From positions 810,001 to 874,000 of the forward strand of contig NZ_JBAJNS010000001.1 of NCBI RefSeq assembly GCF_037911585.1: a stretch of DNA of 64,000 bases. The letters are read 5' to 3'. A program made the position numbers and the translations under genes. The DNA comes from Streptomyces sp. GSL17-111. Lineage in GTDB: Bacteria > Actinomycetota > Actinomycetes > Streptomycetales > Streptomycetaceae. The notes under the pieces were generated by a model. It did not search any database. It was not told where the DNA came from and was given only the letters and a program-made list of their open reading frames with translations. Shown in pieces: positions 1 to 20,650 of the stretch (its first letter is position 1; every line of letters starts with the position of its first letter).

Positions 1-2132
1 ATGCGACGCTGCACGGCGTCGGCGAGGACGGCGTTGACGGAGCCGAGGTCGGCCTCCATGCGAGCGACCTTGCGAGCGACGCGGGAGAGGAACTCCAGGT
101 CGGCCTCGTAGGAGCCGGGGGTGGCGTGCTGCCAGCCGGAGCCGATGAAGTGGGTGATCTCGGGGTCGGCGCGCTGGCCCCAGCGGTCGATGCGGCCGAT
201 GCGCTGTTCGAGCTTGTTGGGGTTGAAGGGGATGTCGTAGTTGACGAGCCGGTGGCAGTGGTTCTGGAGGTCGATGCCCTCCCCGGCGGCGTCGGTGGCG
301 AGGAGGATGCGGAGTTTGCCTTCCTCGGTGGCGGGGTCGGCCTGGAAGGCGAGGCGGATGTGCTCGCGTTCCTCGGTGCTCAGGCCGCCGTGCAGTACGG
401 CGACGCGGCCGTCGTCGGTGAGCCGCTCCTGGCGCAGGAGGTCCAGCAGCCACCGCTGGGTGTCGCGGTACTCGGTGAAGACGACGACGCGCTCGTTGAG
501 CCACAGGCCGCCGGGGGAGGCGAGGCAGACGGCCTTGAGAAGGTCGATGAGAGCCTGGGCCTTGGAGTCGGCGGCGGCCTCGTGGGTGAGGGCCCAGCTC
601 TCCATGCGGGCCAGGAGGTCGAGTTCCTCACCGTCCTCGGTCGGGGTGAGGCTCGTGGAGCGGGTGAGGGCGTCGTCCTCGGCGTCGGCGAGTCCGAGGT
701 CGTCGAGGTCGCCGACGGTGTCGGTGTAGTCCTCCAGCCACTCGGGGACGTCGTCGGCTGCGGTACGGGCGCGGCCTCCGGTGTCGTCCAGGTGGGAGAG
801 GTAGACGCGGACGGTGTGGAGGAAGGCGGCCGGTGAGGAGAAGAGGCGCTTCTTCAGCAGAAGGGTCACCAGGTCGGCGGCGCGGCGTCCGCCGCGGGCG
901 CGCGGGGTGAGCTTGGTGCGCCGTAGATCGGCGAAGGAGGACAGCAGGCCGTGCACCTCGCGCTCGGTCTCGGTGTACTCGACCTCGACGGTGTGGGTGG
1001 TGCGCGTGCGGAAGCGCGGGGTGCCGTCGGGGTGGGTGACGGAGGATTTCAGGCGGCGGACGACGGTGTCGGCGAGGGCTTCCCTTCCGGGTTCGACGCC
1101 CCGCGCGAACTTCTGGTCGTCGATGAGTTCGAGCAGCGCGGTGTAGGACTCGGGGTAGCCGTTGTGCGGGGTGGCCGACAGGAAGAGCCGGTGCTCGAAG
1201 TGGGGCGCGAGGCGGCGGATCAGCTTGGTCTGCTGCGAGTCGACCGCGTAGACCTGCTTGGGGGCGGCGGGTGCGACGTGGTGGGCCTCGTCCAGGACGA
1301 GCAGGTCGAAGAAGCGGCTTACGCGTCCGGCCTTCTCGTCGTGTGGGGGTCCGCCGGCGTGGGTGGAGCCGGTGGGGATCACCTCGTCGAGGAGGCGCTG
1401 GGCCTTGGTGCCGCGCAGCCAGGGCAGGGAGACGATGGTCAGCGGGTGAACGCGGAAGGGGTTGGCCGCGGTGCCGTGAGTGCGGCGCAGCCGGGCGCAG
1501 TGCTCGGAGTCGACGATGGTGAAGTCCAGGCCGAACTTGTCATGAAGCTCGTCGCGCCACTTGAGGGTGAGGCCGGCGGGGCAGACGACCATGACGCGGC
1601 GGGCTCGGCCGCGCAGCAGCAGCTCCTGGACGACGAGCCCGGCCTCGATGGTCTTGCCGAGGCCGACGTCGTCGGCGAGGAGCAGGTTGACGCGGGGGGC
1701 GCCGACGGCACGGGAGACGGGTTCGAGCTGGTAGGGCTCGATGGCGACGCCCGAGCGGAACGGTGCTTGGAGGGTCTTGACGTCGGCGGAGGCGACGGCG
1801 GACCAGCGGACGGCGTCCAGGAACGCTGCCAGGCGCTCGGGAGGGTCGTAGGTGCCGGTGGCGGCGTCGGGGAGGGAACCCGCGGGCAGCACGCGGCGGC
1901 CAGGCTCAACCTCCCAGATGACGGACAGGGTGTCGCCGAAGCGGCCGTCGGCTACGGACTGGAGGTGGACCAGCGTGGCCGGACGCCCGCCGTCGGCCGG
2001 GGTAGCCGGCTGCACACGCGCGACGACCCAGCTCTGCCCGCGCACTTCGACGAGCCTGCCCTCTTCGGGACGTTCCTCTTCGGCCGGGTTGCCGGTCGTG
2101 CCGGTGGCGCGCTGCGCTGCTGGTGCCGTCAT
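1..2132 (-). CDS. SNF2-type DNA helicase, DrmD-like (3' end outside window)
   Basis: About 710 codons are present and the frame stays open to base 1, so the C-terminus lies outside the window. Read on the minus strand, the Walker A motif DDVGLGKT is near residues 153-160 and the DEAH box (LDEAHH) near 280. LFLSATPHNG follows, and the C-terminal helicase lobe carries HGG and then RIGRIDRWGQ near 644, the SNF2 motif VI. The ATG at 2132 is the only ATG or GTG in frame before an upstream TGA. SNF2 helicases of this kind include DrmD of DISARM and RapA-like proteins. The defence neighbours favour a DrmD-like role as a DNA translocase acting on foreign DNA, but that is inference. It has its own promoter region, with the island element 108 bp upstream. 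Drm A, B and C cannot be judged because the left side is cut. Confidence 0.85.
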   Translation of the reverse strand, partial: MTAPAAQRATGTTGNPAEEERPEEGRLVEVRGQSWVVARVQPATPADGGRPATLVHLQSVADGRFGDTLSVIWEVEPGRRVLPAGSLPDAATGTYDPPERLAAFLDAVRWSAVASADVKTLQAPFRSGVAIEPYQLEPVSRAVGAPRVNLLLADDVGLGKTIEAGLVVQELLLRGRARRVMVVCPAGLTLKWRDELHDKFGLDFTIVDSEHCARLRRTHGTAANPFRVHPLTIVSLPWLRGTKAQRLLDEVIPTGSTHAGGPPHDEKAGRVSRFFDLLVLDEAHHVAPAAPKQVYAVDSQQTKLIRRLAPHFEHRLFLSATPHNGYPESYTALLELIDDQKFARGVEPGREALADTVVRRLKSSVTHPDGTPRFRTRTTHTVEVEYTETEREVHGLLSSFADLRRTKLTPRARGGRRAADLVTLLLKKRLFSSPAAFLHTVRVYLSHLDDTGGRARTAADDVPEWLEDYTDTVGDLDDLGLADAEDDALTRSTSLTPTEDGEELDLLARMESWALTHEAAADSKAQALIDLLKAVCLASPGGLWLNERVVVFTEYRDTQRWLLDLLRQERLTDDGRVAVLHGGLSTEEREHIRLAFQADPATEEGKLRILLATDAAGEGIDLQNHCHRLVNYDIPFNPNKLEQRIGRIDRWGQRADPEITHFIGSGWQHATPGSYEADLEFLSRVARKVARMEADLGSVNAVLADAVQRR

Positions 2133-2230
2133 GGCGTGGGCCGGGCCTTCCCCTCGGGTGCGTCGTGGTGCCGACTCACCGGCATTGTCCTCGGTCCGAC
2201 CGGTGGCCGGGGCGAGTCAGACTAACAGAA

Positions 2231-2257
2231 TGAACTACATGTGCACTTAGTTCACAG
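2231..2257 (-). promoter_or_regulatory. Island element 1 and inverted repeat upstream of the SNF2 helicase
   Basis: On the minus strand 2257-2241 reads CTGTGAACTAAGTGCAC. The same element recurs upstream of the methylase (4818-4834) and of the third kinase (8592-8576), with 15 of 17 bases identical to the latter. It overlaps a perfect inverted repeat, TGAACTA (2231-2237) and TAGTTCA (2248-2254), separated by 10 bases. It points toward the helicase start at 2132, with 108 bases between. A regulator site or an upstream activating element is likely; its binding protein is unknown. Confidence 0.6.
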
Positions 2258-2272
2258 AAGATCGTCGCCCGG

Positions 2273-3748
2273 TCATGCCACATCGTGGAGCAGCCGGTCC
2301 AACCGGGCCAACAGGAGCTCCGCCCGGGTCAGGCGGTCCGCGTGCTCGGGGCCGAGCACGCGCAGATCATCGCGGAGAGCGGCGAAGAGTGCTCGGGCCC
2401 GCCGGTGATCGCCGATCCGGGCCACCAGGACGGCGACCTCCTCCCGGATCCGCAGCACCTCCCGATCGGCCGGGCCCCGGCCGCGCATGTGGACCCGCAA
2501 GACGTCATCGAAGGTGCTCAACGCCTGAGGCGTGTCCCCCACCATCGCGAGGCACTGGGCGGTGCCGATACGACAGGAGAGCAGCTGGGGGTCCTCCGCT
2601 CCGCGATGCTCACGCAGGGCACCGTCCAGGGCACGGAACCCGTCCAGCGCCCGGCTGGGGGCGCCGGCCAGCCGGAGGTGGTCCAGGTAGGCGAGCCGAA
2701 GCGTGACCACTGAGGCGTCGGTTGTGGAACGGCTCAGGACCCCGGTCTCGGGCTCCAGCAGCGCCGCGGCACCGGCATGGTCTCCCTGGGCCGCCAGCGC
2801 ACCGGCCTCGGTGATCAGCCGGGCCGCCGCGGCACGGTTCGTCGGGCTCGGAACGGGCCGAGGCGCGGGGAGCACAGCCGGAGCGGCGGGGGTCGTCACC
2901 GGTGCGGGAGTGGCGCCACGGACCCGGGACCAGGCGCGCGCGTGGTCGCGGACCTCCGCCGGAGTGGGGCGGTCGGCCGCGTCCTTGGCCAGCAGTGCCA
3001 TGACGAGATCGGCGACGGGAACGGGGACGTGCGGGCAGCGCTGACGCAGCGCGGGCACCGGTTCGCGCAGGTGCTTGAGGATCAGCATCAATGGCGTGTC
3101 CGCCCGCAGCGGCGGCTCGCCGGACAGCAGTTCATAGGCGACGCATCCGAGTGCGTAGAGATCGCTGGCTTCGACGACCTGGCCGTCGGCCTGCTCGGGA
3201 GCCATGAAGCCCGGTGTTCCGGGGGTGGCGTGGGTGGCGGTGAGCTGCTGGTCGTCCGGGACGGCCCGCAACGCGGCGGCGATGCCGAAGTCCAGGACCT
3301 TGAGCCCACCGCCGGTCGTGAGCATGAGGTTGGAGGGTTTCAGGTCCCGGTGGATGACGCCCGCATGGTGCGCGTACGCCAAGATGTCGGCGGCTTGGGC
3401 CAGGACATCGCCTACGTGGTGGACGGGCAGGCGCCCCTCACGGGCGGCCATGTCCTTCAGGGTGTGGCCGTTCACCCGCTCCATCACGAGGTAGAGCTGC
3501 CCGTCGTCGAGCTTGCCCAGGTCGTGGATGACGGGAACACCCGGATGAGCAAGCCGCGCGGTGAGCCTGGCTTCGCGCAGGAAGCGCTGTTCGAGTGTGG
3601 TGAGACCGGCGCCGACTCCCCGAGGGGCAAGGAACTTGATAGCCACCTGGCGGTCGAGCTGGGCGTCGTGGGCGGCCCAGACCTCGCCCATGCCACCTCG
3701 ACCCAGCAGGTCACGCAGCTCGTACCGCCCAAGGATCTCGCGCGTCAC
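2273..3748 (-). CDS. Ser/Thr protein kinase with C-terminal TPR-like region (STK1)
   Basis: A Hanks-type kinase occupies residues 5-260: glycine loop LLGRGGMGEVW, catalytic HRDLKPSN near 134, DFG near 150 and the APE segment FMAPEQ. The last 190 residues form helical repeats rich in Ala and Leu (ALLEPE, ALDGFRALDG, ALSTFDDVL) that resemble tetratricopeptides, a likely substrate or partner docking region. No membrane segment is seen, so it is cytosolic. I chose GTG at 3748 because GGGGACGG sits 5 bases upstream; a GTG at 3778 would add ten residues. It lies 85 bp downstream of kinase STK2 and 140 bp upstream of the SNF2 helicase on the same strand, so kinases and helicase may be partly co-transcribed. 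Its targets are unknown; the other island proteins are the obvious candidates. Confidence 0.88.
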   Translation of the reverse strand: MTREILGRYELRDLLGRGGMGEVWAAHDAQLDRQVAIKFLAPRGVGAGLTTLEQRFLREARLTARLAHPGVPVIHDLGKLDDGQLYLVMERVNGHTLKDMAAREGRLPVHHVGDVLAQAADILAYAHHAGVIHRDLKPSNLMLTTGGGLKVLDFGIAAALRAVPDDQQLTATHATPGTPGFMAPEQADGQVVEASDLYALGCVAYELLSGEPPLRADTPLMLILKHLREPVPALRQRCPHVPVPVADLVMALLAKDAADRPTPAEVRDHARAWSRVRGATPAPVTTPAAPAVLPAPRPVPSPTNRAAAARLITEAGALAAQGDHAGAAALLEPETGVLSRSTTDASVVTLRLAYLDHLRLAGAPSRALDGFRALDGALREHRGAEDPQLLSCRIGTAQCLAMVGDTPQALSTFDDVLRVHMRGRGPADREVLRIREEVAVLVARIGDHRRARALFAALRDDLRVLGPEHADRLTRAELLLARLDRLLHDVA

Positions 3749-3833
3749 AGTCCGTCCCCAGTCCACCCGTGTCGGCACCGCACCGGGGGAATCCTCTCAC
3801 TACCCGGCGTGTGCTCACCGTTTCCGTCCGGGG

Positions 3834-4775
3834 TTACGTCGGAACCGGCCCGGCGGGCAGCACGAAGGGACGGCGTGGGTCCTCGGGGGCGCAGGTCCCC
3901 GTGGCCCGGGCGGGGTCGGGGGCAGGGAGATATGGCGCCAGTGCCGCGTAGACCGTGGCGGCCGAGGCGGGGCGGTCCTCCGGTTCTTTGGCGAGCAGAC
4001 CGTCCAGCAGGCCCTGCAATCCAGCGGGAATCCGGACACCGCGGGCGGCGGCCGACGGCGGAGATTCCTTGAGGTGCTGGACGACCAGCCGCGCCGACTG
4101 CTGGCGAGGGAAGGGCGGCGCGCCGGTGAGCAGGTGATGCAGCAGGCAACCGACGGCGTACAGATCGCTGCGGCCGTCGAGTGCGCGGGAGCCGGTGAGC
4201 AGTTCCGGGGAGGCGTAGAGGATGTTGCCCACGTACTCGCCGGTCATGGTCAGCCGTGATCCCAGGTCGGAGAGCAGTTTGACGAGGCCGAAGTCGAGGA
4301 TCTTGACGACGCCGTCCCGGCCGATCATCACGTTCTCGGGTTTGAGGTCGCGGTGCACCAGGTCGGCGGCGTGGGCGGCCGACAACCCGGCGCACAGCTG
4401 AGCGATCAGCGCCGCCGCCGAGGGGACGTCCAGCCTTTCCTGATCACGCTCACCCAAGACGATGTCCACGGTGGCGCCCTGCACGAGCTGCATGGCGATC
4501 CAGTAGGCGGATCCGGTCACGTCGGCATCGTGAACGGTGGCGATGTTGGCGTGCTCGAGCGATGCCGCCACGCGGGCCTCGCGTTCGAACCGGCGTAGCG
4601 CCCGGGACCGCCCGTCCGGATCGGAGAGCAGTTCGGCAGCGGCGATCTTGACGGCGACGGGCCGGTGGAGACGGAGATCACGTCCCGCCCAGACCTGCCC
4701 CATACCTCCCCGACCGAGCTGCCCCTCGAGTTGATATCGGCCGCCCAGCACGGCTCCTCGCCCGATCTTCGTCAC
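3834..4775 (-). CDS. Ser/Thr protein kinase, cytosolic, catalytic domain only (STK2)
   Basis: A 313-residue Hanks-type kinase with glycine loop QLGRGGMGQVW, VAVKI lysine, HRDLKPEN near 141, DFG and an activation-loop SPELL in place of APE. There is almost no sequence after the kinase fold, only a Pro-rich tail of about 35 residues, and no transmembrane helix or PASTA repeat. The GTG at 4775 is preferred because GGAGGGG precedes it by 5 bases; a GTG at 4799 would add eight residues. It is the first gene of the leftward run STK2, STK1, SNF2 helicase and is divergent from the N6-adenine methylase. Kinase-methylase neighbours are also a feature of Pgl/BREX type 2 systems, but no PglZ is seen here. 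Function in defence signalling is inference. Confidence 0.88.
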   Translation of the reverse strand: MTKIGRGAVLGGRYQLEGQLGRGGMGQVWAGRDLRLHRPVAVKIAAAELLSDPDGRSRALRRFEREARVAASLEHANIATVHDADVTGSAYWIAMQLVQGATVDIVLGERDQERLDVPSAAALIAQLCAGLSAAHAADLVHRDLKPENVMIGRDGVVKILDFGLVKLLSDLGSRLTMTGEYVGNILYASPELLTGSRALDGRSDLYAVGCLLHHLLTGAPPFPRQQSARLVVQHLKESPPSAAARGVRIPAGLQGLLDGLLAKEPEDRPASAATVYAALAPYLPAPDPARATGTCAPEDPRRPFVLPAGPVPT

Positions 4776-4817
4776 GGTTTCCCCTCCGCATTCCCGCACG
4801 ACATCCCCCTCACCTAT

Positions 4818-4834
4818 CTGTGAACAGAGTCAAT
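4818..4834 (+). promoter_or_regulatory. Island element 2 upstream of the N6 methylase
   Basis: CTGTGAACAGAGTCAAT on the plus strand matches the core CTGTGAACnnAGT(C/G)nA of the elements at 2241-2257 and 8576-8592. It points toward the methylase start at 4945, with 110 bases between, almost the same distance as at the other two sites. The gap 4776-4944 must also hold the leftward promoter of kinase STK2. Confidence 0.6.
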
Positions 4835-4944: not shown

Positions 4945-6951
4945 ATGACTTCAGCCCAACCCGTACCGGTCACCCTCGCGGAGATCGCGCGGATCGCGGG
5001 GGTGGGGCGCGCGGCGGTCAGCAACTGGCGACGCCGCCACAGCACTTTCCCCGATCGCATCGGCGGTACGGACGTCAGCCCGCAGTTCTCGCTCGAGGAA
5101 GTGGAGCAATGGCTGCGTTCCCAGAAAAAGCTCAAGACGGGCGGCGAACGTGAGTTGCTGTGGCCCCGGTTCGAGGTCCTGGGGGACCGCGACGACACGG
5201 GTATGGCCATCGCTGAGAGCGGACGGCGGATGCGCGGGGGCCGGGCCCGGAAGGGCGGTCCCCACCTGCGCGAGGAAGCCGTCGAGCTGATCTCCGAGGC
5301 GGTCCGGCTCGGTCGACGCTCCGGAGCTCAGGACACCTATGAGTTCTTGCTCAGGCGGTGGCTGGACACCCACGTGCGGCAGATCAGCACCACTCCCCCG
5401 CAGCTGGCCGAGCTGATGACCCGCATCGCCCTGGCCATCCGACCGGACGAGAGTCGAAATCCACTGACGGTGCTCGATCCCGCATGCGGCAGCGGGCAGA
5501 TTCTCGCAGCGGCGGCGCAGGTCCGCAGCCGGGAGAAAACGTCACTGCTGGGTAACGACCGGGATGCGGCCCTCGCGGCACTGGCGGCGGCACGGCTGGG
5601 CTTCGTGACGGACGACACCGGGGCCACTGCGGACATCCGCACCGCCGACTCCCTGCGGGGCGATCCGCACCCGGGCGCCGTCGCCGACGTCGTGGTCTGC
5701 AATCCACCCTTCAACGAACGCGATTGGGGCTACGAGGAACTGGCGACGGACGCGCGCTGGGTGTACGGGCTGCCACCCCGCACGGAACCGGAGCTCGCGT
5801 GGGTGCAGCACTGTCTCGCCCACCTCAGACCCGGGGGCACCGCCGTGATGTTGCTGCCCCCTGCGGTGGCCGCGCGCAAGGCGGGCCGCAGGATCCGCAG
5901 CGCTCTCTTGCGGAGCGGTCTGCTGCGAGCGGTGATGGCGCTACCACGCGGCTCCGCGCCTCCGCACAGCGTCTCACTGCACATCTGGGTGCTGCGTCTG
6001 CCGTCGAAGGAGGACGATGCGCCCACGACCGACGACGTGCTGCTCATGGACGCCGCACGGCACGGCGGGCCGGGGGGTAAGGAATCGGGTCCCGCGTGGG
6101 AGGCTCTGAGGACCGACGCACTGAACGCGATGGGTGTGCTCGACGATCCGGAGGCGGCGGTCCCGGAAACCGTCGCCAGGGTTCCCATCATCGACCTGCT
6201 GGACGAGGACGTGGACCTCACCCCGGGGCGCCACGTCTCGACGAGCGCGGAGCAGACCGGACCCGAACTCGGTCCGCTCTGGACCGAGTACAGAACGCTG
6301 CTCACCCGGCTGTCGGAGACCGGGGCGATGCTCGCCGACCTCGATCTGCCGGACGATGCCTCCGGCCGCCATCCGGCCACCACCGTGGGCGAGCTGGCGC
6401 GAGCGGGGGCACTGACGCTGCGGAGCGGGCAACAACCGCCCGAGGACACGCTCACGAACACTGAGTCACCGGGTGGAGACACCGTGCCGTTGCTGACGGT
6501 GGCCGATGTCATGATGCGTACCGACCCCACCACCAGGGTCACGGCCGACGCCGCACCGGTGGTGGTCGAGGACGGCGAGGTCGTGGTCGCCGGAGTGGCG
6601 AGGGCCTTCCGCGCGTGGGTCCACCAAGGATCGCCACTCGCGCTGGGCCCTCAACTCCACGCTCTGCGTGTCGACCCGACACAACTGAACGCCGGCTTCC
6701 TGGCGGGCTGTCTCCGCGCTCCGGCCAACCGGCGGCAGGCCGGCACACACGCCTCAAGCTCATCCCGGGTGGAGGTGCGCAGGCTTCAGGTGCTCCAGAT
6801 CCCGCTCTCCGAACAGCTCCGCTACGATTCCGCGTTCCGGCACGTACGCGCCCTTGAGGAGCTCGTCGGGCGCCTTGCGGAACTGGGCGGCGGCCTCGCA
6901 GGGGAGCTCGGCGACCGACTGGCCGCAGGTCGTCTGACGAAGGTCGAGTGA
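4945..6951 (+). CDS. N6-adenine DNA methyltransferase with N-terminal HTH
   Basis: 668 residues. Residues 9-62 form a helix-turn-helix (IARIAGVGRAAVSNWRRR) with a following EEVEQWL helix, as in AlpA/MerR-like domains. The SAM-binding motif I, LDPACGSGQ, is near 176 and the catalytic NPPF near 252, the HsdM/type I and IIG adenine methylase signature. The C-terminal 350 residues may include a target-recognition-like region (QIPLSEQLRYDSAF near the end). No restriction subunit or HsdS is adjacent, so it could mark self DNA for the nearby nucleases or act alone. Start ATG has CGGAGAC 4 bases upstream. It is divergent from STK2 and convergent with STK3, whose stop lies 40 bp away. Confidence 0.88.
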   Translation: MTSAQPVPVTLAEIARIAGVGRAAVSNWRRRHSTFPDRIGGTDVSPQFSLEEVEQWLRSQKKLKTGGERELLWPRFEVLGDRDDTGMAIAESGRRMRGGRARKGGPHLREEAVELISEAVRLGRRSGAQDTYEFLLRRWLDTHVRQISTTPPQLAELMTRIALAIRPDESRNPLTVLDPACGSGQILAAAAQVRSREKTSLLGNDRDAALAALAAARLGFVTDDTGATADIRTADSLRGDPHPGAVADVVVCNPPFNERDWGYEELATDARWVYGLPPRTEPELAWVQHCLAHLRPGGTAVMLLPPAVAARKAGRRIRSALLRSGLLRAVMALPRGSAPPHSVSLHIWVLRLPSKEDDAPTTDDVLLMDAARHGGPGGKESGPAWEALRTDALNAMGVLDDPEAAVPETVARVPIIDLLDEDVDLTPGRHVSTSAEQTGPELGPLWTEYRTLLTRLSETGAMLADLDLPDDASGRHPATTVGELARAGALTLRSGQQPPEDTLTNTESPGGDTVPLLTVADVMMRTDPTTRVTADAAPVVVEDGEVVVAGVARAFRAWVHQGSPLALGPQLHALRVDPTQLNAGFLAGCLRAPANRRQAGTHASSSSRVEVRRLQVLQIPLSEQLRYDSAFRHVRALEELVGRLAELGGGLAGELGDRLAAGRLTKVE

Positions 6952-8476: not shown

Positions 8477-8489
8477 GACCGCTCCTCGC

Positions 8490-8528
8490 CTTCGTTCCGC
8501 GTCTTCGTTCCGCGTCTTCGTTCCGCGC
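8490..8528. repeat. Three tandem copies of a 13-bp unit upstream of STK3
   Basis: CTTCGTTCCGCGT occurs at 8490-8502, 8503-8515 and 8516-8528, the last copy differing only in its final base. With the preferred STK3 start at 8476 the array lies in its 5' leader, between the island element and the ribosome binding site. It may be a multi-copy binding site or a slippage-prone spacer that tunes expression. It is too short and lacks spacers for a CRISPR array. Confidence 0.85.
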
Positions 8529-8575
8529 GCTCCAACGCTCAGCATAGAGCTTCATCATTCACAGAAGCGTCGTCA

Positions 8576-8592
8576 GTGGACTAAGTTCACAG
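8576..8592 (-). promoter_or_regulatory. Island element 3 in the STK3/nuclease divergent promoter
   Basis: On the minus strand 8592-8576 reads CTGTGAACTTAGTCCAC, matching the element at 2257-2241 at 15 of 17 positions. It points toward STK3 with 99 bases to its GTG. A partial copy, TTCACAGAAG at 8558-8567, repeats the sequence next to element 1 (TTCACAGAAG at 2251-2260). The same gap carries the promoter of the rightward nuclease-PIWI operon. Confidence 0.6.
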
Positions 8593-8642
8593 CTTTGTGT
8601 CATGCTGTCGGCGACTTCGATCCCGGCCCTCAGGGAGTGGCC

Positions 8643-11595: not shown

Positions 11596-14500
11596 CCGGA
11601 GCAGTTGGTACCGGCCGGTGGTGGAGGCCCTGCGACCCTGGCCGGAAGCGCACGACGACACCAGACCGTCGCTGCTGTGCCAAGTGGAGCTGGGGCTCAG
11701 ACTGCTGGAGACCCTGGATCCGCGCTGCGGTGCGGACGGGGTGTGGACGTTGCTCGGGGGATATCCCTTCGGTCAGGCAGCGGGGCTGGTGCGGAGCGAC
11801 TCCCAGCACCTGGCGGTAGCAGCCGCTCGGCATCTGCTGTGGCCGATGCGCCGACGGCGGATGTGGGAACAGGCTTTGGAGACCTACCTGGAGCTGCCGG
11901 AACGCCTGCGCGGCTACCGTGTTCCGACCACCGGCGGTCCTGCCCGTCGGGTAGACCCACCGATCGCAGGGGCACGGTTTACCGTCTACGATGCCGCACT
12001 CGCGACGCTGCCCGACTTCGCCACCAGCTCGCTCCCCCTGGCCGGCACGGGATCCTACCGCTTCATGGACGGCCGTCGACACGCGTCCGTATCCATCCCC
12101 GAGTCCCTGGTCCGAGAACCGACGGCGGGACACGATCTGGCGGCAGGCCGGCCTGGTGACTCCACACCGATCGATGTGTCGATGGATGAACTCGCCGATA
12201 CTGCGGAGTGGATGGACGCCGAGGAGCAGCGGCTCGGGCTCCGGGCCGGCAACTGGGCGGAGCGCCTCACGGATCTCCATCTCGACACGCGTTCCCCGGG
12301 CGGCAGCGACTTCGTCCCCGCTTCCCGGCTGCGGCTGGACGAGCTCACCCACCTGGTGGGTATGGTCGGCGCCGGTAAGTCCACATTGATGAGCCTTCTG
12401 GCGGTCTGGGCGCACCAGCGCGGCCTGCGGACCACGCTGGTCGTCGGGGACGTCGCGGAACAGATCGCCTTGACCGAACTCTTCCGCGGCCTCGGCCTGT
12501 CCGCCGCCGTGGTCCAAGGCGGCACCACACGGGAGCAGCACACCCAGCGGCTGCACCGTCGGCTCGCGGCCCGTGGTGCACGATCCCTGCTGCTCCACAC
12601 CGACCGTGCGTTCGACCATCTGAGCACCACGTGCCCTCTGGACGCCCTGCGCGGCCTGGACGCGGCCGCTCCGCTACGCTACGCCGACGCGCCCTGCGGA
12701 GCCCTGCACCCGGTCCGTCACACCGCGCCCCCCGAGGAGCCGTCCGGCCCGGACGACCGGCTGGAACACCTGCGCGCCCTTCGCCGGACCGAGTCACCTC
12801 CTTCGGACCGCCCGTCGGAAGCTCCCGACGAACTTCGGGACGCGCACACGTGCCCCCTGTGGTCGTCCTGTCCACGCCATTTCGCCGCTCGCTCCCTGGT
12901 CGATGCGCTGATCTGGGTGGCGAATCCGGCCAGTCTGGTGCAGACGGCCGTACCACGTCAGCTCAGCGCCGAACGACTGCGCTACTTGGAACTGGCCTGC
13001 CTACGCAGCGACATCGTGATCGTGGACGAGGCGGACCGCGTACAGATGCAGCTGGACCAGATGTTCGCGCCATCGGCGACGCTGGTGACGCGTGGACCGG
13101 AGTCGTGGCTCGACCAGCTCCAGACCCACGAGATCGCCGAACTGGCACGGCAGGGCAGGCTGCCCCTCTCCGACCGTGACGTGGAGCGCTGGTCCTCCGC
13201 ACTCGATGTCGTCGGTCAGGCCACCGACCGTTTGTACGCACGGCTGATCAAGAATGAGGATCTGCGTTCCTGGGCCCAGATCGACTACTTCAGTGCCTGG
13301 ACGTTGCAGGAGCGGCTGCTCCACGAGTGGTACCCGCCCCTTGCCGCTCCGACCGAGGAGACCCTGGAGAACGAAGCGGAACTGTACGAAGGCGAGGGGG
13401 GGCTGCGTGCGGCCCGCACCTCCGGGGAGGAACCGGACGGGCAACGCCTGAGCCCTGCCGGAGATCCCCACGCCGAACGCCGTGAGGTGGTCACCCGGGT
13501 GCTGGACGCCTTCCGTGACGATCCGCTCGGCGACCGCGGGCCCTACGGCACGGACACCGATGCCCTGACGCGCCTGGCCCACGACCTGCTGCACACCCTC
13601 GACGAGAAGAGCACCCGGCGCAGGGTCCGGACCGTGCTGGAAGTCCTGCTGAAGGAAGCACCCTGCGTCAAGGAGGGGAGCGCATCCGGTGATAAGTGGC
13701 TTGAGCAAGCCGCAGAACGCTTGGAGTTCGTGATCATCCTGGCCGTGCTGCATCAGCGGCTGGATCGCGTCACCTTCCTGTGGCCGCAGGTTGAGGCGGC
13801 ACTCCACCTGGACACCGGCGGCAACGACCTCACTCGTCGCCCGCCGCTCGACTACGCCCCGCTGGTGCCCGAAACGCCTATGGGGAACGTACTGGGTTTC
13901 CAGTACCTCCCCGACGACCGCGAGCGGCGCCGGGACTCCGAAGGGCGCTGCACCGGCACTCTGCGGTTCTTTCGCTGCGCCGGGGTCGGCCGGGAGCTCC
14001 TGCTCTCCCTCCACCGGCTGGGGGCACAGCCGGAACACGGCCGGGGCGGCCCCCAGGTGCTGCTGATGTCCGGCACCAGCTGGGCAGGAACGTCCACCCG
14101 GGCGCATGTCCTCGCTCCGGTTCGCGCCGTCCTCCGTCCGGGGACGAAGGCACTTCGGGCCATCAGCGAGACGCACTTCCGAACGCATTTCCTCTACGAC
14201 ACCGCAGGTCGGCCCATCAGGCTTTCCGGCCAGCACCCGGACCGTCGCGCCGATGTGCTGCGCTCCATGGTGCTGGGGCTGGCCCGCGACGGCCGCGGCG
14301 GTGAGCCGGGGCCCCTGCGCCAGGAGCTCGGCCGCATCGCGGACGAACGCCGACGGCGCGCCCTGTTGCTGGTGGGAAGCTACCGTGAGGCCACAGTCGC
14401 CGCCCATCTGCTGGACGAGATCCCGCGCTGGCACGGCCGGGTACGGGTCCTGACCGCCGATGACGCCGAGCTGGACGCGGCCGTCGCGGGAGACCCGGCG

Positions 14501-15259
14501 CGCGGCGACGGACGCGGCCGTGCGGGCGCCGTCCGCAGAGGCGACCTGGCCACGTTCGCGGACGATCCGGACGCGGAACTGCTGGTGGCTCCGCTGCTGG
14601 CCATCGAACGGGGACACAACATCCTCACCGTGCCGCAACGCCCCGGCGAGGAACGTGTGGCCGCCTTCGGCACCGTCTTCTTCCTCGCCCGCCCGCATCC
14701 CCGACCGGACGACCTGTCGCTCACGGTCTTCGCCGTGAACGACTGGGCGGCACGCTTCGTCCGGGACCAACACCGGGACAGCAGAAGCGGGCAGCAAGGC
14801 GGATTCACCGAGCTCGTCTCGGCGGCCCCGGATCTCAATCAGGCCGGCGCCACGTTCCGTACCACCGCTCGAGGGGTGTGGCGGCATCTCCTGTCCCGAC
14901 CGTACGTCTACTCCGCTCTGTCGGAGAGTGAGAAGGAGTCGTTCGCCTGGGATCAGCTCGTCACCATCTGGCAAGTGATCGGACGGCTCGTGCGAGGCGG
15001 TGTTCCGGCCCGCGTCGTCTTCGTGGACGCGGCCTTCGCCCCCGCGCTGGCAGCCGCCTGGGCACCGCGTCCCCTGGTCGAGCCACCACGCTGGCTGCGG
15101 GATCCCGGCCTGCTCGTGCGGCTGCGAGACGTACTCGCGCCGTACTTCGACCAAGGGGCCGATCCCTGCACTTTCACGGACCCGACCGATCCGGCGCTCG
15201 TCCGGAAGCTCTATCAGCCGCTCTACCAGGCCCTGTGCCGCCTCGGCACCGACGACTGA
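11588..15259 (+). CDS. DinG/XPD-type superfamily 2 helicase of the pPIWI-RE module (Z domain)
   Basis: 1223 residues from ATG 11588 (GGAGAGGG upstream). Walker A GMVGAGKST is near 259-267 and the DEAD box IVIVDEADRV near 478. Between them lie four cysteines at about 350 (TTCPLD), 371 (APCGAL), 422 and 427 (TCPLWSSC), the place where XPD and DinG hold a 4Fe-4S cluster. SGTSWAG near 827 and QVIGRLVRGG near 1128 are late helicase motifs. DinG helicases move 5' to 3' and can unwind DNA-RNA hybrids, which fits a PIWI partner. It overlaps the REase gene by 8 bp and ends 40 bp before the PIWI gene. The N-terminal 250 residues fit the Z domain by position only. Confidence 0.85.
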   Translation: MRDRSSWYRPVVEALRPWPEAHDDTRPSLLCQVELGLRLLETLDPRCGADGVWTLLGGYPFGQAAGLVRSDSQHLAVAAARHLLWPMRRRRMWEQALETYLELPERLRGYRVPTTGGPARRVDPPIAGARFTVYDAALATLPDFATSSLPLAGTGSYRFMDGRRHASVSIPESLVREPTAGHDLAAGRPGDSTPIDVSMDELADTAEWMDAEEQRLGLRAGNWAERLTDLHLDTRSPGGSDFVPASRLRLDELTHLVGMVGAGKSTLMSLLAVWAHQRGLRTTLVVGDVAEQIALTELFRGLGLSAAVVQGGTTREQHTQRLHRRLAARGARSLLLHTDRAFDHLSTTCPLDALRGLDAAAPLRYADAPCGALHPVRHTAPPEEPSGPDDRLEHLRALRRTESPPSDRPSEAPDELRDAHTCPLWSSCPRHFAARSLVDALIWVANPASLVQTAVPRQLSAERLRYLELACLRSDIVIVDEADRVQMQLDQMFAPSATLVTRGPESWLDQLQTHEIAELARQGRLPLSDRDVERWSSALDVVGQATDRLYARLIKNEDLRSWAQIDYFSAWTLQERLLHEWYPPLAAPTEETLENEAELYEGEGGLRAARTSGEEPDGQRLSPAGDPHAERREVVTRVLDAFRDDPLGDRGPYGTDTDALTRLAHDLLHTLDEKSTRRRVRTVLEVLLKEAPCVKEGSASGDKWLEQAAERLEFVIILAVLHQRLDRVTFLWPQVEAALHLDTGGNDLTRRPPLDYAPLVPETPMGNVLGFQYLPDDRERRRDSEGRCTGTLRFFRCAGVGRELLLSLHRLGAQPEHGRGGPQVLLMSGTSWAGTSTRAHVLAPVRAVLRPGTKALRAISETHFRTHFLYDTAGRPIRLSGQHPDRRADVLRSMVLGLARDGRGGEPGPLRQELGRIADERRRRALLLVGSYREATVAAHLLDEIPRWHGRVRVLTADDAELDAAVAGDPARGDGRGRAGAVRRGDLATFADDPDAELLVAPLLAIERGHNILTVPQRPGEERVAAFGTVFFLARPHPRPDDLSLTVFAVNDWAARFVRDQHRDSRSGQQGGFTELVSAAPDLNQAGATFRTTARGVWRHLLSRPYVYSALSESEKESFAWDQLVTIWQVIGRLVRGGVPARVVFVDAAFAPALAAAWAPRPLVEPPRWLRDPGLLVRLRDVLAPYFDQGADPCTFTDPTDPALVRKLYQPLYQALCRLGTDD

Positions 15260-15299: not shown

Positions 15300-18200
15300 A
15301 TGCCGAGCTACACCCATCTCCGGCGTGCCGCCTACCTCCAGGACCCCGACGCGTCGCCCTGGACCGCGTCGTACCACGCTCTACCGTTTCCCGAGCACTG
15401 GCATGAGGGCCTCCTCGCCCTGTGCAACGTCGGACGGGACGAAGAGAGAAGGCTGCGCACGGTCCCGACCCGACGTCTCGACGGAGTACTACAAACGCTG
15501 GCTCCCGATCTGATCGTGCGTCCTCGCAGCCGTCCGCCCCTCGGCGAACGGACCACTCCCCCCCAAGACGCCTGGCTGTACGTTCCTTCCGAGGCACCGC
15601 CTCCGCTGCCCGCGCCCGCGTTGAGTCGGCTGCTGGATGCCTGGTTGCCCACGCTCGGCCCCAGGGACGGCGGATTCGGGCACAAGTTCCGTCGTCTGAT
15701 GCTCGCGACCAGCGCCGAACTGAAGAAGAGCCTGCCGACCTGGCATGCGGTCGGCGAGGTCAAGCTGCTCGTTACTCCGGCCAGCGACGGTGGCACCGCA
15801 GTGCCTGAGGGTCGGCAGTTCCAGCTCGCCACCGATGCGCTGGCCCGCCGCATCCTCGCACTCGACCCCTACGAGTTCGACGGTGGCACGCTGCGCTTCC
15901 GCGCGGTGCCACGGGGGCCGCGGGATCAAGGCGCCGAGCTGATGTCCCAGCCGCTGTGCCGCACCGTCAAGCGAAGGGAGTGGTGGTTCTCCGTCGTCCT
16001 CAACATCTCGCTGCACACCGTGCCTTTCGACCCGCAACCCCGCCTGCACCTGCACTGGAGTGTGCGACGTTGGGCAACCCACCCCCGCCGCGACACCGGC
16101 AGGCTCGATCTGCCCTTCACACAAGCGACCTCCGTCCATCTGCGCCCGAACATCCCCTGGCTACCCGGTGCACCGACGAGCGACCGGTACGCCGTAGCCC
16201 GGCTGGTGAGGGATCACCGCTCCGGCTCCTTCACCTGGATGCACAACGACCCCGCCGGCATCCTGCGCGCCCTCACGCTGGGAGACCGTTTCCCCGCTGT
16301 CGACGCGCTGCTGTCCGACCCCGTCACCTGGATCGACGAGGGTGGGCCCGGCGTACGTGCGGCCGTAACACACAGCAACCGCATGAGCGCCACCCATGAG
16401 ATCGGCCGTGGCTTCATGCCTCATCAGCGGTCCCAACTGACGGCGTGGGCTGAGCAGGCGCTGCCGGAGGGCGTGCGGCGGGCCCCCGACCTGGTACGGG
16501 CGGCACGGGGCGCCGGTGCTCCCGCCAATCGGCGGCCCAAGCCGAAGGGGGATGAGGCGAAGCAGCGGGAAGGAGAGCGCACGGCTCACCAGCGGCGTGC
16601 CGCACTGGCCGCCGTTCGATCGGCCGACGGCAGAAGGCCCGAGGTGGAGTTCCGGCTCCTGTGGCAGACCCACGAGTTGCGTCACCAGGCCGTGGCCGCC
16701 TTCGCTGACGTGCTCGGTCTTCCCGAGCGTCCGCAGGCGTCCAACCGTTCCGGCCTCACCGACCAGACCTTCGACGAGGCCAGGCCGGGATCATCCGTGG
16801 ATCTGGAGTGGCACACTCCCGAACTGCTGCTCCGGCTGCGCTGTCTGCCGTTGAACGGCGGGCTGGGAGAGAGACTGGAGCTTGACGACAGCATCCGCGG
16901 CAAGGGGGCTCGGATCGCGGAGGCGATCACCACCCGACGGCGCGACGTATGCACCCGGCTCAAGGAGGACGGTGCCGCCCCGGAGCAGCCCGCCCTCGCC
17001 CTCGTGGAGATCGCCCATCGCAGCGCCTTCCGAGCCTCCGGGACTGACCCCAAGTTCGCGCTCCGGCTTGGCTGCGCGGACGCGGGGGTACTGACACAGT
17101 TCGCCGCAACGCCTACCGCCGAGCGAGGAGCCCGGAACGAGGGAAGCCTGGAGCACCGGGTGCGTAACGCCTGGCTCGACGGGATCCGGCAGCTCGGTGT
17201 GCGGGTGCTGCCCGAACATACACGTACCGAAGCGCTACCCGACGATCTGCGATACGCCGCCCTGTGGATGGTCAAACGACGCAAGGACGGGCCTACTCGG
17301 CTGCCACTCCATCAGCCTGTCGCTGTCCTCATGACCCCACTTCCAGGTGCTGCGGGGTTGGCTCGGATCCAAGGCTGGGACGATGAGCGGGGCGACTGGG
17401 TTCCGTATCCGGACTTCCTGCTCGGGCTGGTGAAGAAGGCAGAGGTCAGCGCCGACGCTTTCCACGAGCCGACGCCTCGCCTTCCGGGCCCGCGTTCTGG
17501 AGAGGGCTCCGAGTCGTCGCCGGTCCACGTCACCTCTCCAGCGTGGCGTGGCAATCTCGAGGAGCAGCGACGCCGGACGGCAAGGTTCCTCCAGCGGTTG
17601 CTGCACTCCCTGCGCGGGCGGCCTACGGTCCTCATCACCCATGCGCAGAACAGCAGACTGCACTGGCCCTGGCTCCAGGATGGTCGAGTAATCCGGGATC
17701 TGTTGAAAGACGGGCACGCGCCGGCACGCCGGATCGACGAGCAACTGCGACTGGTTCGGGTAAGAGGAGGCTCGGGCAGGGAGACAGCCCAGTGGTGGGG
17801 CGTGGCCGAAGGACCGGATCAGGCCAGCGGGCAGCCGGCAGGGTTCTGGTCCCTCCCGGTGCAAGAGGGCTGTAGGCGAACGCTCGGCGAGCGGGTCTTC
17901 TACAGCGCTACGAGCCGACCGCAGACGCAACCCGTCTCCCCCTCGCTGGACCGCCTGGCCATTCGAGTCAACGCACAGGGCACACCGACTTCCCAAGCCG
18001 GTACCGATGCCTGCAACCCCGCGCTGACGGAGATCACGGTGCTCGCCTGTCATCCTGACGACAACAGCGAGGACCGCCAAGACGATCCACTCGATTTCGC
18101 GCTGGCGATGCATCAGCTACGCCAGGCGCCGGACTACCCGGACGCCCTCTCACTGCCCTTGCCGCTGCATCTGGCCGGTCAGGCTCAGGCTTACGTGCTG

Positions 18201-18347
18201 CCTATGGCGGAGGCCGAGGAGTCCGAGGAGGCGGACCTGGAAGGCCGCGCGCACGCAGATGGGAGAACGGAAGGGGACCTTGACCCCGACCTCACCGAGC
18301 CCCCTTCGCCCGATGCGGCGCCCGAACCCCAACTCTCGCTTTTCTGA
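15300..18347 (+). CDS. pPIWI-RE protein with C-terminal clamp-binding motif
   Basis: 1015 residues, start ATG 15300 with CGGAGC upstream. It sits third in the REase-helicase-PIWI order typical of pPIWI-RE islands. The C-terminal PIWI region is recognised by RRTLGERVFYSATS near 857, NPALTEITVL near 905 and DALSLPLPLHLAGQA near 946; the large N-terminal part would hold the X domain and MID. RNase H-fold catalytic residues could not be confirmed by eye, so activity is open. After residue 965 comes a disordered acidic stretch ending exactly in QLSLF, the consensus for binding the DnaN sliding clamp. This suggests tethering to replication forks or repair patches. PIWI-RE proteins are thought to recognise guide-target hybrids or R-loops of plasmids and phages. 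Confidence 0.83.
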   Translation: MPSYTHLRRAAYLQDPDASPWTASYHALPFPEHWHEGLLALCNVGRDEERRLRTVPTRRLDGVLQTLAPDLIVRPRSRPPLGERTTPPQDAWLYVPSEAPPPLPAPALSRLLDAWLPTLGPRDGGFGHKFRRLMLATSAELKKSLPTWHAVGEVKLLVTPASDGGTAVPEGRQFQLATDALARRILALDPYEFDGGTLRFRAVPRGPRDQGAELMSQPLCRTVKRREWWFSVVLNISLHTVPFDPQPRLHLHWSVRRWATHPRRDTGRLDLPFTQATSVHLRPNIPWLPGAPTSDRYAVARLVRDHRSGSFTWMHNDPAGILRALTLGDRFPAVDALLSDPVTWIDEGGPGVRAAVTHSNRMSATHEIGRGFMPHQRSQLTAWAEQALPEGVRRAPDLVRAARGAGAPANRRPKPKGDEAKQREGERTAHQRRAALAAVRSADGRRPEVEFRLLWQTHELRHQAVAAFADVLGLPERPQASNRSGLTDQTFDEARPGSSVDLEWHTPELLLRLRCLPLNGGLGERLELDDSIRGKGARIAEAITTRRRDVCTRLKEDGAAPEQPALALVEIAHRSAFRASGTDPKFALRLGCADAGVLTQFAATPTAERGARNEGSLEHRVRNAWLDGIRQLGVRVLPEHTRTEALPDDLRYAALWMVKRRKDGPTRLPLHQPVAVLMTPLPGAAGLARIQGWDDERGDWVPYPDFLLGLVKKAEVSADAFHEPTPRLPGPRSGEGSESSPVHVTSPAWRGNLEEQRRRTARFLQRLLHSLRGRPTVLITHAQNSRLHWPWLQDGRVIRDLLKDGHAPARRIDEQLRLVRVRGGSGRETAQWWGVAEGPDQASGQPAGFWSLPVQEGCRRTLGERVFYSATSRPQTQPVSPSLDRLAIRVNAQGTPTSQAGTDACNPALTEITVLACHPDDNSEDRQDDPLDFALAMHQLRQAPDYPDALSLPLPLHLAGQAQAYVLPMAEAEESEEADLEGRAHADGRTEGDLDPDLTEPPSPDAAPEPQLSLF

Positions 18348-18404: not shown

Positions 18405-18475
18405 GGCCAGGTCACGTCAGCATGATCCCTAGACTGGTCGCCGGACCGCACACATCGCATCGCCCGCGGGGAGAC

Positions 18476-20650
18476 ATGCCAAAACTGGCCATCTCGGAGG
18501 AGTTCTTCGAGGAGTACGCGCGCCTGGAGAAGCACGTGCGCAGCGGCGTACGCGACGCTGTCCGCACCTTCCAGCAACTCACGATCGCACAATTGTACGG
18601 AAAGAAGGGGTTGCACCTCGAACAGCTGGCGCACGCTCGCGATCCGCGCATTCGCACGATTCGCATCACCAAGTCCTACCGGGGTGTCGTACTGGCACCG
18701 GACGACGGAAGCCATACCTTCCTCCTGATCCGAGTAGCACCGCATGACGAGGCGATCACCTGGGCTCAGAAGCGGGCCTACTCGGTCAACGCGGCCACGG
18801 GCGCCTTGGAGGTACGGAACGTCGAAGCACTGGAAGCAGTGGAACCGTTCTTCGCGGACAAGGCGAACACCGAGCCGAGCCGGCTCTTCGCGACGCATTC
18901 CGACTCCGTGCTGCGCGACCTCGGACTTGACGACCAGATGCTCAGATTGGCGCGTCTCTGCACAGACCGGGACGACCTACGCATGATCACTCCGCCGCTG
19001 ATGCCGGCGGACCAGTTCGAGGTTCTGGAATTCCTGGCTGAGGGCTTCACTCCCGAGGAGGTCTGGGAACAGCTGATCACCGTGCGTCGGCCGGCGAGCC
19101 GCTCCACCGACAAGCGCGCACCCGTGGGTATCGGTGAGGCGATTCGCAACACTCCCAACCGCATCGTGGAAGTGGCAGGCGCCGACGAGCTGGAGCGCGT
19201 ACTCGCCGACGACTTCGCCCGGTGGCGCGTCTTCCTGCACCCGACTCAGCGGCGAGTCGCCTATCACCCCGGCTACAGGGGCCCCGCACAGGTGACCGGC
19301 GGACCCGGCACCGGCAAGACGGTCGCGGCGCTGCACAGGGTGCGGCACCTGCTACTCGCGAACCGTGACAGTGACGCACGGGTCCTCCTGACCACGTTCA
19401 CCAACGCCATGGCCGACGCACTACGGGAGAACCTCGGGTTGCTCCTCGGCGAGGCCGATCGCCACCTGCTCACCCGCGTCGACATCACCACCGTCGACTC
19501 GCTCGCTTCCCGCGTCATCCGCGAAGCTCACGGCGCGGTACCGAAGGCACTTTCCGGTCCCGCCGAGAAGAGCATGTGGACGACCATACGCTCGCGCCAC
19601 GGGCTCGGATGGTCCGAGCAGTTCCTTTCCCAGGAGTTCCGGCACGTGCTCCTGGCTCAAGAGCTGAGGACCCCCGAGGAGTATCTACGCTGCACTCGGC
19701 GCGGGCGTGGAACTCCGGTAGGACCTGTCCAGCGGGCTCAGCTATGGCGAGCGATGGAGGACTTCGCTACCACCGTCGACTCCCGCGGGACAGCGACGTA
19801 CACCCAGCTGTGCGCCCGCGCCGCGCGCATTCTGCGGGGGCGGACTCCCCGGTACCGGCATGTCGTGGTGGACGAGGCCCAGGACCTGCACCCGGCACAG
19901 TGGAGGGTCCTGCGCGCCTGTGTCGCACCCGGAGCCGACGACATGTTCCTCGTCGGCGACCCCCATCAACGGATCTATGACTCACGGGTGTCTCTGAAGT
20001 CTTTGGGAATCCCGATCACCGGCCGGTCCGCCCGCCTGCGGCTCAACTACCGCAGCACAGAGGAAATTTTGACCTGGGCGCTGTCTCTTTTGGACGGACA
20101 GCAGGTCTTCCGGTTGGGTCAGGACGACGAGGAAGGTGATCTCGACACGCTCGCCGGTTACCGCTCGGAGCTGCACGGCCGCATGCCGGTCGCCCGGGGG
20201 TGGAGGACGCAGGAGGAGGAGCTTGCGGGCTTGGCGGAGCAGGTCCGGGCCTGGATCGACGTCGACGGTGTGCGGCCGTCAGAGATCGCCGTGTGCGCAC
20301 GCTTCAACGCCGTGGTCGATGCGGTCATCGCCGGGCTGAAGCGGGCGGGCGTCCCCGCCGTTGGCGTGAGGAAAGCCCCCGGCCCGGAAGTAGGGGGCGT
20401 GCGCGTGGCGAGCATGTACGCGATGAAGGGGCTCGAGTTCCGCTGCGTTGCCGTGGTCGGTGTCAACGCGGGCGTGCTGCCGTTTCCGCCTAAGATCACG
20501 CCCTCCGAGGTGGATCCCGTACAGCATAAGTCCGACCTGCTCGCCGAACACTGCCTGCTCTTCGTGGCCTGCACCCGAGCGAGAGACGCACTGGCCGTTT
20601 CCTGGAGCGGTGAGCGGAGCCGCCTCCTCAACGCGGCGGTCGAGGGCTGA
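18476..20650 (+). CDS. UvrD/Rep-type helicase with N-terminal RelE-like domain
   Basis: 724 residues from ATG 18476 (GGGGAG four bases upstream). Residues 1-110 resemble RelE/ParE toxins: a helix with FFEEYARLEKHV, then RTIRITKSYRGVVLAP and a C-terminal HDEAITWAQKR. The helicase follows, with Walker A VTGGPGTGKTV near 275, motif II VVVDEAQDLHP near 464, motif V MKGLEFRCV and motif VI VACTRARDAL. Such fusions of a toxin fold to a superfamily 1 helicase occur in defence islands; whether the RelE fold still cleaves RNA is unknown. It closes the island, separated from the PIWI gene by a stem-loop and a 128-bp gap, so it may be an accessory rather than a core part. Confidence 0.83.
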   Translation: MPKLAISEEFFEEYARLEKHVRSGVRDAVRTFQQLTIAQLYGKKGLHLEQLAHARDPRIRTIRITKSYRGVVLAPDDGSHTFLLIRVAPHDEAITWAQKRAYSVNAATGALEVRNVEALEAVEPFFADKANTEPSRLFATHSDSVLRDLGLDDQMLRLARLCTDRDDLRMITPPLMPADQFEVLEFLAEGFTPEEVWEQLITVRRPASRSTDKRAPVGIGEAIRNTPNRIVEVAGADELERVLADDFARWRVFLHPTQRRVAYHPGYRGPAQVTGGPGTGKTVAALHRVRHLLLANRDSDARVLLTTFTNAMADALRENLGLLLGEADRHLLTRVDITTVDSLASRVIREAHGAVPKALSGPAEKSMWTTIRSRHGLGWSEQFLSQEFRHVLLAQELRTPEEYLRCTRRGRGTPVGPVQRAQLWRAMEDFATTVDSRGTATYTQLCARAARILRGRTPRYRHVVVDEAQDLHPAQWRVLRACVAPGADDMFLVGDPHQRIYDSRVSLKSLGIPITGRSARLRLNYRSTEEILTWALSLLDGQQVFRLGQDDEEGDLDTLAGYRSELHGRMPVARGWRTQEEELAGLAEQVRAWIDVDGVRPSEIAVCARFNAVVDAVIAGLKRAGVPAVGVRKAPGPEVGGVRVASMYAMKGLEFRCVAVVGVNAGVLPFPPKITPSEVDPVQHKSDLLAEHCLLFVACTRARDALAVSWSGERSRLLNAAVEG

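Follow-up and report, generated by a model that had tools for sequence, protein, structure and literature searches.

The window analysed here is the whole of a 64,000-nucleotide stretch from Streptomyces sp. GSL17-111, positions 810001-874000 of contig C1 in a 6.03 Mb genome, and coordinates to the left of it are given as negative numbers. Its left end cuts through a defence island in which an operon for a bacterial PIWI-RE protein (pPIWI-RE) and a class 1 DISARM gene set lie on either side of a methylase gene, W4, in the company of three Ser/Thr kinase genes, W2, W3 and W5. A rare 15-bp site, here called the operator, stands before each major operon and is associated with the W4 family of methylases, and it appears that W4 may regulate both sets of genes. 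Genes were called from open reading frames and from GC content at third codon positions (GC3), and were named by Pfam, PADLOC and NCBIfam profiles.

The pPIWI-RE operon is read on the forward strand. The genes for a restriction endonuclease (PprRE, 10396-11595, with Y and pPIWI_RE_REase domains; 422 bits in PADLOC), a DinG-like helicase with a Z domain (PprDinG, 11588-15259; 971 bits) and pPIWI-RE itself (PprPIWI, 15300-18347, with X, MID and PIWI-RE domains; 1168 bits) stand close together or overlap in the canonical order of the three-gene islands. Pfam and PADLOC matches bear out this order as well as the Cas4/AddB-like nuclease gene (PprPDDEXK, 8643-10403; 588 bits) that the initial annotation of the window had placed ahead of it. 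The ATG at 8643 is favoured over a TTG at 8595 as the start of PprPDDEXK, and the ATGs at 11588 for PprDinG (whose open reading frame opens at 11528) and at 15300 for PprPIWI are putative starts. Excerpts of Burroughs 2013 describe the bacterial pPIWI-RE family in standalone and three-gene contexts, and the Ppr models of PADLOC hold the same order of REase, DinG and pPIWI-RE together with a model for PprPDDEXK; the kinases, the modules with a helix-turn-helix (HTH) methylase or a STAND regulator described below, and the shared site are found neither in those excerpts nor among the matching Ppr-named models.

PprPDDEXK is a predicted tandem of two Cas4/AddB-like Fe-S domains. Its AlphaFold model has a mean predicted local distance difference test score (pLDDT) of 93, and the fold matches of this model in the PDB include AdnA, the Argonaute-associated Cas4 ACE1 and RecE. 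Invariant cysteines, numbered from the TTG at 8595, form two sets (C47 with C296, C299 and C305; C339 with C562, C565 and C571) that we take to follow the Cas4/AddB pattern, and in the second half of the protein the D...ExK residues D440, E453 and K455 are invariant. The solved ACE1 structures match PprPDDEXK, which differs from them in its tandem double Fe-S fold and in its place beside pPIWI-RE. A PIWI-RE protein of P. stutzeri is described in part of PMC10991935 as an RNA-guided DNA nuclease. The family is defined by an Arg and a Glu of the PIWI domain; 50 pPIWI-RE proteins share a number of conserved R and E columns, which may include these two. At the position that we presume to be that of the first catalytic Asp, the window's protein has Thr and most of the 50 homologues have Arg, Thr, His or Asn, and because this position is substituted the nuclease activity of PprPIWI is doubtful.

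All of the genes that define class 1 DISARM, namely drmA, drmB, drmC, drmD and drmMI, are present on the reverse strand. Profile matches identify drmB (-23294 to -21399), drmA (-21402 to -17485) and drmMI (-5438 to -2265); drmC (-24061 to -23291) was overlooked by the gene caller, found in a gap check and confirmed by PADLOC. The gene for an SNF2-type helicase that crosses the window's left end (-1125 to 2132) had been read as merely DrmD-like, in a locus resembling parts of DISARM, and the idea of a novel DrmD-like helicase is rejected: it matches the PADLOC DrmD model at 1398 bits and is drmD within a complete set (PADLOC and NCBIfam) that straddles the window's left edge.

Between drmD and the pPIWI-RE operon, Pfam confirms the N6-adenine methylase and the three Ser/Thr kinases of the initial annotation. 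W2 (2273-3778) and W3 (3834-4799) lie on the reverse strand next to drmD, and are further characterized by the kinase tree and by the DrmD loci of other genomes; W2 has a TPR-like tail, for which TPR_12 falls just below the Pfam cut-off. W5 (6992-8545, reverse strand), with a C-terminal tail of its own, is divergent from the pPIWI-RE operon. W4 (4945-6951, forward strand) stands between W3 and W5. Pfam recognizes its N6-adenine methylase domain, while the N-terminal HTH and a C-terminus resembling a target recognition domain (TRD) are read from the sequence and the predicted model (pLDDT 86.5, predicted template modelling score 0.67). No HTH profile matches the N-terminus of W4, which is almost invariant among 33 homologues. 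The fold resembles those of Type I M subunits, PacII M1M2S, the MTase-Ocr complex structure and other adenine methylases, and the search is informative on little beyond the class of methylase.

Genes around pPIWI-RE and DISARM in other genomes

The 391 genomes sampled from the window's order mostly belong to its own genus, and 65 of them (63 above cut-off) have the Y domain of PprRE (PF18156). In a phylum-wide sample the domain was found in 6 of 396 genomes, five of them again from that genus. Loci of at most 20 kb were taken from 60 of the 64 above-cut-off pPIWI-RE places in the order; those left out are G050, G376, G215 and the window's own, which was read from the window. A nuclease-seeded scan of contigs from named organisms gave 80 further loci (80 of 115 confirmed ones were kept), a source that biases the class shares given below. 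Three loci were dropped, L092 and L097 since tblastn did not match PprRE and L137 since DinG was out of range, and the resulting 138 loci, the window included, came to 112 non-redundant ones after merging those with DinG at least 97% identical. In seven of the 112 there are less than 6 kb of upstream sequence (the triads L081, L082 and L083; L107, L116 and L117, with a kinase only; and L160, with the core four genes).

PprPDDEXK is present in 98 of these loci, and the remaining 14 are triads. Class A, with a kinase and a methylase, accounts for 50 of the 98 and class B, with a kinase and a STAND regulator, for 26; the others have a kinase alone (4, three of which end at the boundary of the available DNA), a methylase alone (1), a different divergent gene set (class C, 10) or the core four genes alone (7). 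A divergent kinase lies within 6 kb upstream in 80 of the 98 PDDEXK-bearing loci versus none of the 14 triads, two of which have almost no upstream DNA. When only loci with 6 kb or more of upstream sequence are counted, the figures are 77 of 94 versus 0 of 11 (Fisher p 9e-8, for loci that are related and not independent), and the density of kinases in the genome (26 per 6.03 Mb, the island's own counted) would place one there by chance at about 1.5% of loci. The order-level profile-search loci taken by themselves divide into 22 of class A, 11 of class B, 6 of class C, one with a methylase only and 14 triads. Class A occurs in Streptomyces, Wenjunlia, Nocardia, Umezawaea, Actinomadura, Nonomuraea, Herbidospora, Acrocarpospora, Thermoactinospora and Sphaerisporangium, and the linkage of the methylase persists through three arrangements (44, 4 and 2 of the 50 loci). 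In the DinG tree the PDDEXK-bearing operons all fall on one side of a single branch; this and the other trees were made with FastTree only, and long branches were flagged.

In class B (L068, L071, L073-L080, L084 and relatives) the kinase is accompanied by a STAND protein, which lies downstream and not upstream in 6 of the 26 loci. In the one representative scanned, NB-ARC and TPR are above cut-off and a SARP-like N-terminus is below it, so that the regulator is likely, though not firmly, AfsR-like; the pairing of kinase and regulator presumably resembles that of AfsK and AfsR. In class C (L058, L060, L063-L067, L069, L070, L072, L136, L142) the kinase is replaced by a divergent set of three proteins, the scanned representatives of which have no Pfam match, with a superfamily 1 (SF1) helicase and, in some loci, a ResIII-type helicase.

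The profile of DrmD matched in 51 of the 391 genomes, and 40 of the 53 matches were taken as loci, the window, G090 (already covered) and 11 weaker matches being set apart. DrmMI, DrmD, kinases of the W2 and W3 kinds and a W4-type methylase occur together in nine of the 40, with no pPIWI-RE within the stretch examined; four more have one kinase or two, and that stretch contains no methylase, and the other 27 lack both an adjacent kinase pair and a methylase (in one of them, L245, unrelated kinases lie further away). A DrmD tree of 43 rows has a branch (support 99) that sets the 13 kinase-bearing DISARM loci and five composites, i.e., loci in which both systems meet, apart from the rest. There is thus a subclade of class 1 DISARM with the usual gene set that adds kinases and, in most members, the HTH-methylase.

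The kinases do not behave as one module, an idea that the kinase tree rejects. After filters for length and duplicates this tree held 18 background kinases, 12 of the 25 kinase frames from DISARM loci and 20 of the 26 kinases from class B. Kinases of the W2 type grouped with DISARM kinases (16 rows, support 99) and those of the W3 type did likewise (7 rows, support 99), while the kinases in the slot beside pPIWI-RE are scattered over several groups on a weak backbone, which suggests that this slot has been filled by repeated recruitment. The W2-W3 pair and the pPIWI-RE cassette join at one methylase in six composite loci (the window, L043, L099, L100, L106 and L109; L100 stops before drmD). 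The six composite rows require five changes in the methylase tree, and therefore the join of DISARM to pPIWI-RE would be either ancient, with losses, or repeatedly formed, two histories between which the trees do not choose. The larger system that had been proposed around pPIWI-RE, for which co-conservation across Actinobacteria was the suggested check, accordingly survives in part: W5 (80 of 98 loci) and W4 (50 of 98) are co-conserved with the PDDEXK-type operon, while W2 and W3 follow the DISARM clade, DrmD lies beside 5 of the 98 loci and the placement of the UvrD gene is not fixed.

The operator site and its distribution

The operator was first noticed as GTTCACA in a comparison of the intergenic regions between W5 and PprPDDEXK in class A loci, where it occurs in 37 of 46 regions; random stretches drawn from these loci gave 1.0. 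Alignment yields the core TKGACTnWGTTCACA, which is near-palindromic around TGAACTnAGTTCA and opens with a TTGACT-like -35 hexamer. In the island, an exact copy (TGGACTAAGTTCACA, 8577..8591, forward strand) lies in the divergent promoter region of W5 and PprPDDEXK, a second exact copy (TTGACTCTGTTCACA, 4819..4833, reverse strand) lies between W3 and W4 and reads toward W3, W2 and drmD, and a copy with one mismatch (2242..2256, forward strand) lies 110 bp before the start of drmD; further copies are at -17447, before drmA, and at -12060, before the gene for an SF1 helicase-nuclease. Shuffles of the window lead one to expect 0.16 matches at two mismatches. The whole genome contains six sites within one mismatch of TKGACTNNGTTCACA, five of them in the island, and none for the reversed control. 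The methylase, kinases, helicases and nucleases that had been grouped from the window are in this sense connected, by a common site before their operons, and the copies before drmA and drmD are an addition of this genome to the class 1 DISARM set.

Since the site was discovered in class A loci, the counts there are partly circular, and independent tests come from loci with DISARM only, from whole-genome counts and from paralogue loci. Within one mismatch, the site is present in all six composites, in 40 of the 44 other class A loci and in none of the class B (0 of 26), class C (0 of 10), triad (0 of 14) or core-four (0 of 7) loci. Among DISARM loci it is present in 9 of 9 with two kinases and a methylase versus 0 of 27 others. 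An exact match to the refined pattern is present in 38 of the 391 genomes, with 73 copies in all (the reversed control is present in 3 genomes). These 38 are 26 of the 31 genomes with a methylase cassette and 12 of the 360 others (p 1e-26, for genomes that are related, and with methylases looked for in a minority of the 360). The exact site is present in all 26 genomes that have the two commonest arrangements, 17 with class A in the order methylase, kinase, PDDEXK and nine with DISARM, kinases and methylase, a split that was made post hoc. In six of the 12 other site-bearing genomes (G139, G068, G100, G020, G014 and G270) a methylase homologue adjoins the site, and in a seventh (G040) a methylase fragment lies within about 0.5 kb of it. 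Relatives also carry the site between drmA and a UvrD gene and near an SF1 helicase and a GmrSD gene (L318), and before drmA (L319, L320). In G229 (L321) one copy separates a kinase gene from that of a DruE-like helicase of 1761 residues, and the distance to a class A PprRE gene is about 24 kb.

In 36 chosen genomes a loose site was found in 22 of the 28 with a methylase homologue versus 1 of the 8 without. Matches of the TTGACTCGGTTCACA variant, which is common in the genus and was picked up by the looser TKGACTNNGTTCACA pattern, seemed unrelated to begin with; in all 26 such loci examined, however, a methylase homologue follows the variant at a distance of 91-183 bp, and these matches therefore count as support. 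Of 43 loci examined in all, 32 have a methylase and 11 have none (four of the island's own, and L280, L283, L285, L294, L296, L299 and L300). The sixth site of the window's own genome is a variant, and precedes a methylase paralogue 47% identical to W4 (L264, L188; C1, near 3.916 Mb). A Ser/Thr kinase follows the paralogue on the same strand by about 0.8 kb; the tree places this kinase among those of the island, with a support of just 87, and the pair may be an older chromosomal form of the module.

W4 as a probable common regulator, and other readings

We consider that the island comprises two kinase-linked effector sets, class 1 DISARM with W2 and W3 (and with the SF1 helicase-nuclease left of the window) and pPIWI-RE with W5, under one HTH-methylase, W4, that regulates both, and would put the probability of this at about two in three. 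W4 would bind the operator through its N-terminal HTH, and binding would repress the operons as well as the divergent promoter region of W4 itself, repression being suggested by the TTGACT-like -35 hexamer with which the site opens. The kinases would most likely lift repression or activate the effectors upon infection, by phosphorylating W4 or the effector proteins. Once de-repressed, pPIWI-RE, which is probably nuclease-dead, would recognize R-loops or hybrids together with DinG, PprRE and the Cas4-like nuclease would cut or process the invading DNA, and DISARM would act in parallel; more speculatively, the TRD of W4 may sense methylation state or DNA-mimic inhibitors of phages.

There are precedents for a methylase of this kind. 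According to part of PMC3978073, the promoter region of M.SsoII contains a 15-bp quasipalindrome to which the enzyme binds; M.SsoII and M.Ecl18kI have an N-terminal regulatory region and a 15-bp quasipalindromic site in their own intergenic region. As far as sequence and model go, W4 likewise has a putative N-terminal DNA-binding region, and a palindromic site lies at its promoter; W4 differs from M.SsoII in being an N6-adenine rather than a C5 methylase, in the several defence operons that carry the site and in the accompanying kinases. RptR, according to PMC12255303, is a small regulator that represses a defence island from a conserved palindromic site beside defence genes; unlike W4 it is no methylase, and it acts at one promoter, in an island with a Type I restriction-modification (RM) system. 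The data favour W4 as a predicted transcription regulator rather than a self marker.

Several observations weigh against this interpretation, in addition to the circularity of the class A counts and the make-up of the 360 genomes noted above. The site might be a promoter element for a sigma factor or another regulator, though no clear -10 element was found after it. No copy was found in the upstream gap of the UvrD gene. Five cassette genomes have no exact site (G061, G189, G024 and G321, in which class A is arranged differently, and G285, with a methylase alone), four class A loci (L048, L049, L118 and L135) have none even at one mismatch, and some divergent loci carry only variants of it. 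Of the 98 PDDEXK loci, 18 have no kinase. Finally, when six genomes picked for having the site are removed from the 36, the contrast falls to 16 of 22 versus 1 of 8 (p 0.009).

A wider form of regulation by W4 can be put forward tentatively, namely a multi-system regulon in which an HTH-adenine-methylase and kinases govern, through one operator, pPIWI-RE, DISARM, the helicase-nuclease and, in one relative, the DruE-like helicase, and in which a kinase signal or the loss of methylase activity, e.g., through a phage methylase inhibitor, would switch on several of these unrelated effectors together. The opening hexamer of the site also allows a different control, in which the site is a methylation target of W4 overlapping the -35 box and methylation, not binding by the HTH, controls the promoters, much as methylation of a -35 box controls promoters in CfrBI (PMC3978073, in part); we regard this as unlikely, in that 15 bp is a long specificity for a methylase and the nearly invariant HTH of W4 is the obvious reader of the site. 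Still less likely is an ordinary defence island, in which DISARM, pPIWI-RE, an RM-like methylase and kinases piled up independently and do not cooperate. Both systems are indeed mostly found apart (DrmD beside just 5 of the 98 PDDEXK-type loci within the stretches examined), 27 of the 40 DrmD loci have no adjacent kinase pair or methylase, and the UvrD gene varies in position, but independent accumulation does not lead one to expect the concentration of five of the genome's six operator copies in the island, a single methylase at the junction in six composite loci, or the branch that unites five composites with the 13 kinase-bearing DISARM loci. The least probable reading is RM logic, with W4 methylating the host genome as a self mark and PprRE and PprPDDEXK cutting unmethylated DNA, which would suit the N6_Mtase domain, the TRD-like C-terminus and the likeness to Type I M, PacII M1M2S and MTase-Ocr, but the promoter site accounts more directly for the association with the methylase, and the nucleases are not generally dependent on a nearby methylase, because class B, class C and core-four loci retain them with no W4-type methylase in the stretches examined.

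If W4 does act as a common regulator, the site is a testable handle on the co-regulation of two mechanistically unrelated systems, where the coordination of the many systems within defence islands is largely open. It would also place pPIWI-RE, the in vivo role of which is barely known, under predicted control by a kinase and a methylase (or STAND regulator), and the related methylases, of which 28 of the 36 chosen genomes have homologues, would likely be regulators too. As far as the open-licence PMC texts searched go, this regulatory layer on pPIWI-RE and DISARM is new: no report linking pPIWI-RE with kinases or with the operator site was found in them, and the passages on PIWI, kinases or DISARM available from PMC7641849 and PMC10853773 are not about pPIWI-RE.

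Two known systems combine similar parts. MADS has the same combination of a methylase and a Ser/Thr kinase, and its profiles match here weakly and below cut-off (MAD2 at 23.8 of 720 bits, MAD6 at most at 144 of 460). BREX/Pgl requires the PglZ phosphatase, the PglY ATPase and PglX. Neither PglZ nor PglY is among the best 25 matches of each called island protein, in agreement with the first opinion that the locus is not BREX or Pgl; among the same matches PglX hits DrmMI only, at 38 bits, and PglW hits the kinase domains weakly.

Other genes and edges of the island

The UvrD helicase gene (18422-20650, forward strand) follows PprPIWI and had been described as a RelE-UvrD fusion. Pfam supports the UvrD part and, at E 0.01, gives no support for the RelE-like N-terminus, which is presumed from a motif. 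The gene occurs in 8 of the 40 DrmD loci and 10 of the 98 PDDEXK loci at varying positions, and on this conservation it is rejected as a member of the pPIWI-RE operon. UvrD genes of the W10 kind lie beside DISARM genes in L228, L229, L231, L232, L235, L240, L244, L246, L317 and L318, and in L318 it is the gap between UvrD and drmA that holds the operator site.

To the left of the window, between drmA and drmMI, are the SF1 helicase gene (-17414 to -12165, reverse strand), which encodes 1749 residues with an MTES_1575 nuclease domain, a GmrSD-type gene (-11922 to -9373, forward strand) and an HTH/DUF5753 gene (-7215 to -6346, reverse strand). Island genes have GC3 values of 0.78-0.89 versus 0.93 and 0.96 in two genes to the right, the exceptions inside the island being DrmD (0.92) and GmrSD (0.94). 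The low-GC3 stretch begins about 25 kb left of the window, and a DDE_3 transposase gene (L005:4484-5572, at about -25.5 kb) lies at this left edge.

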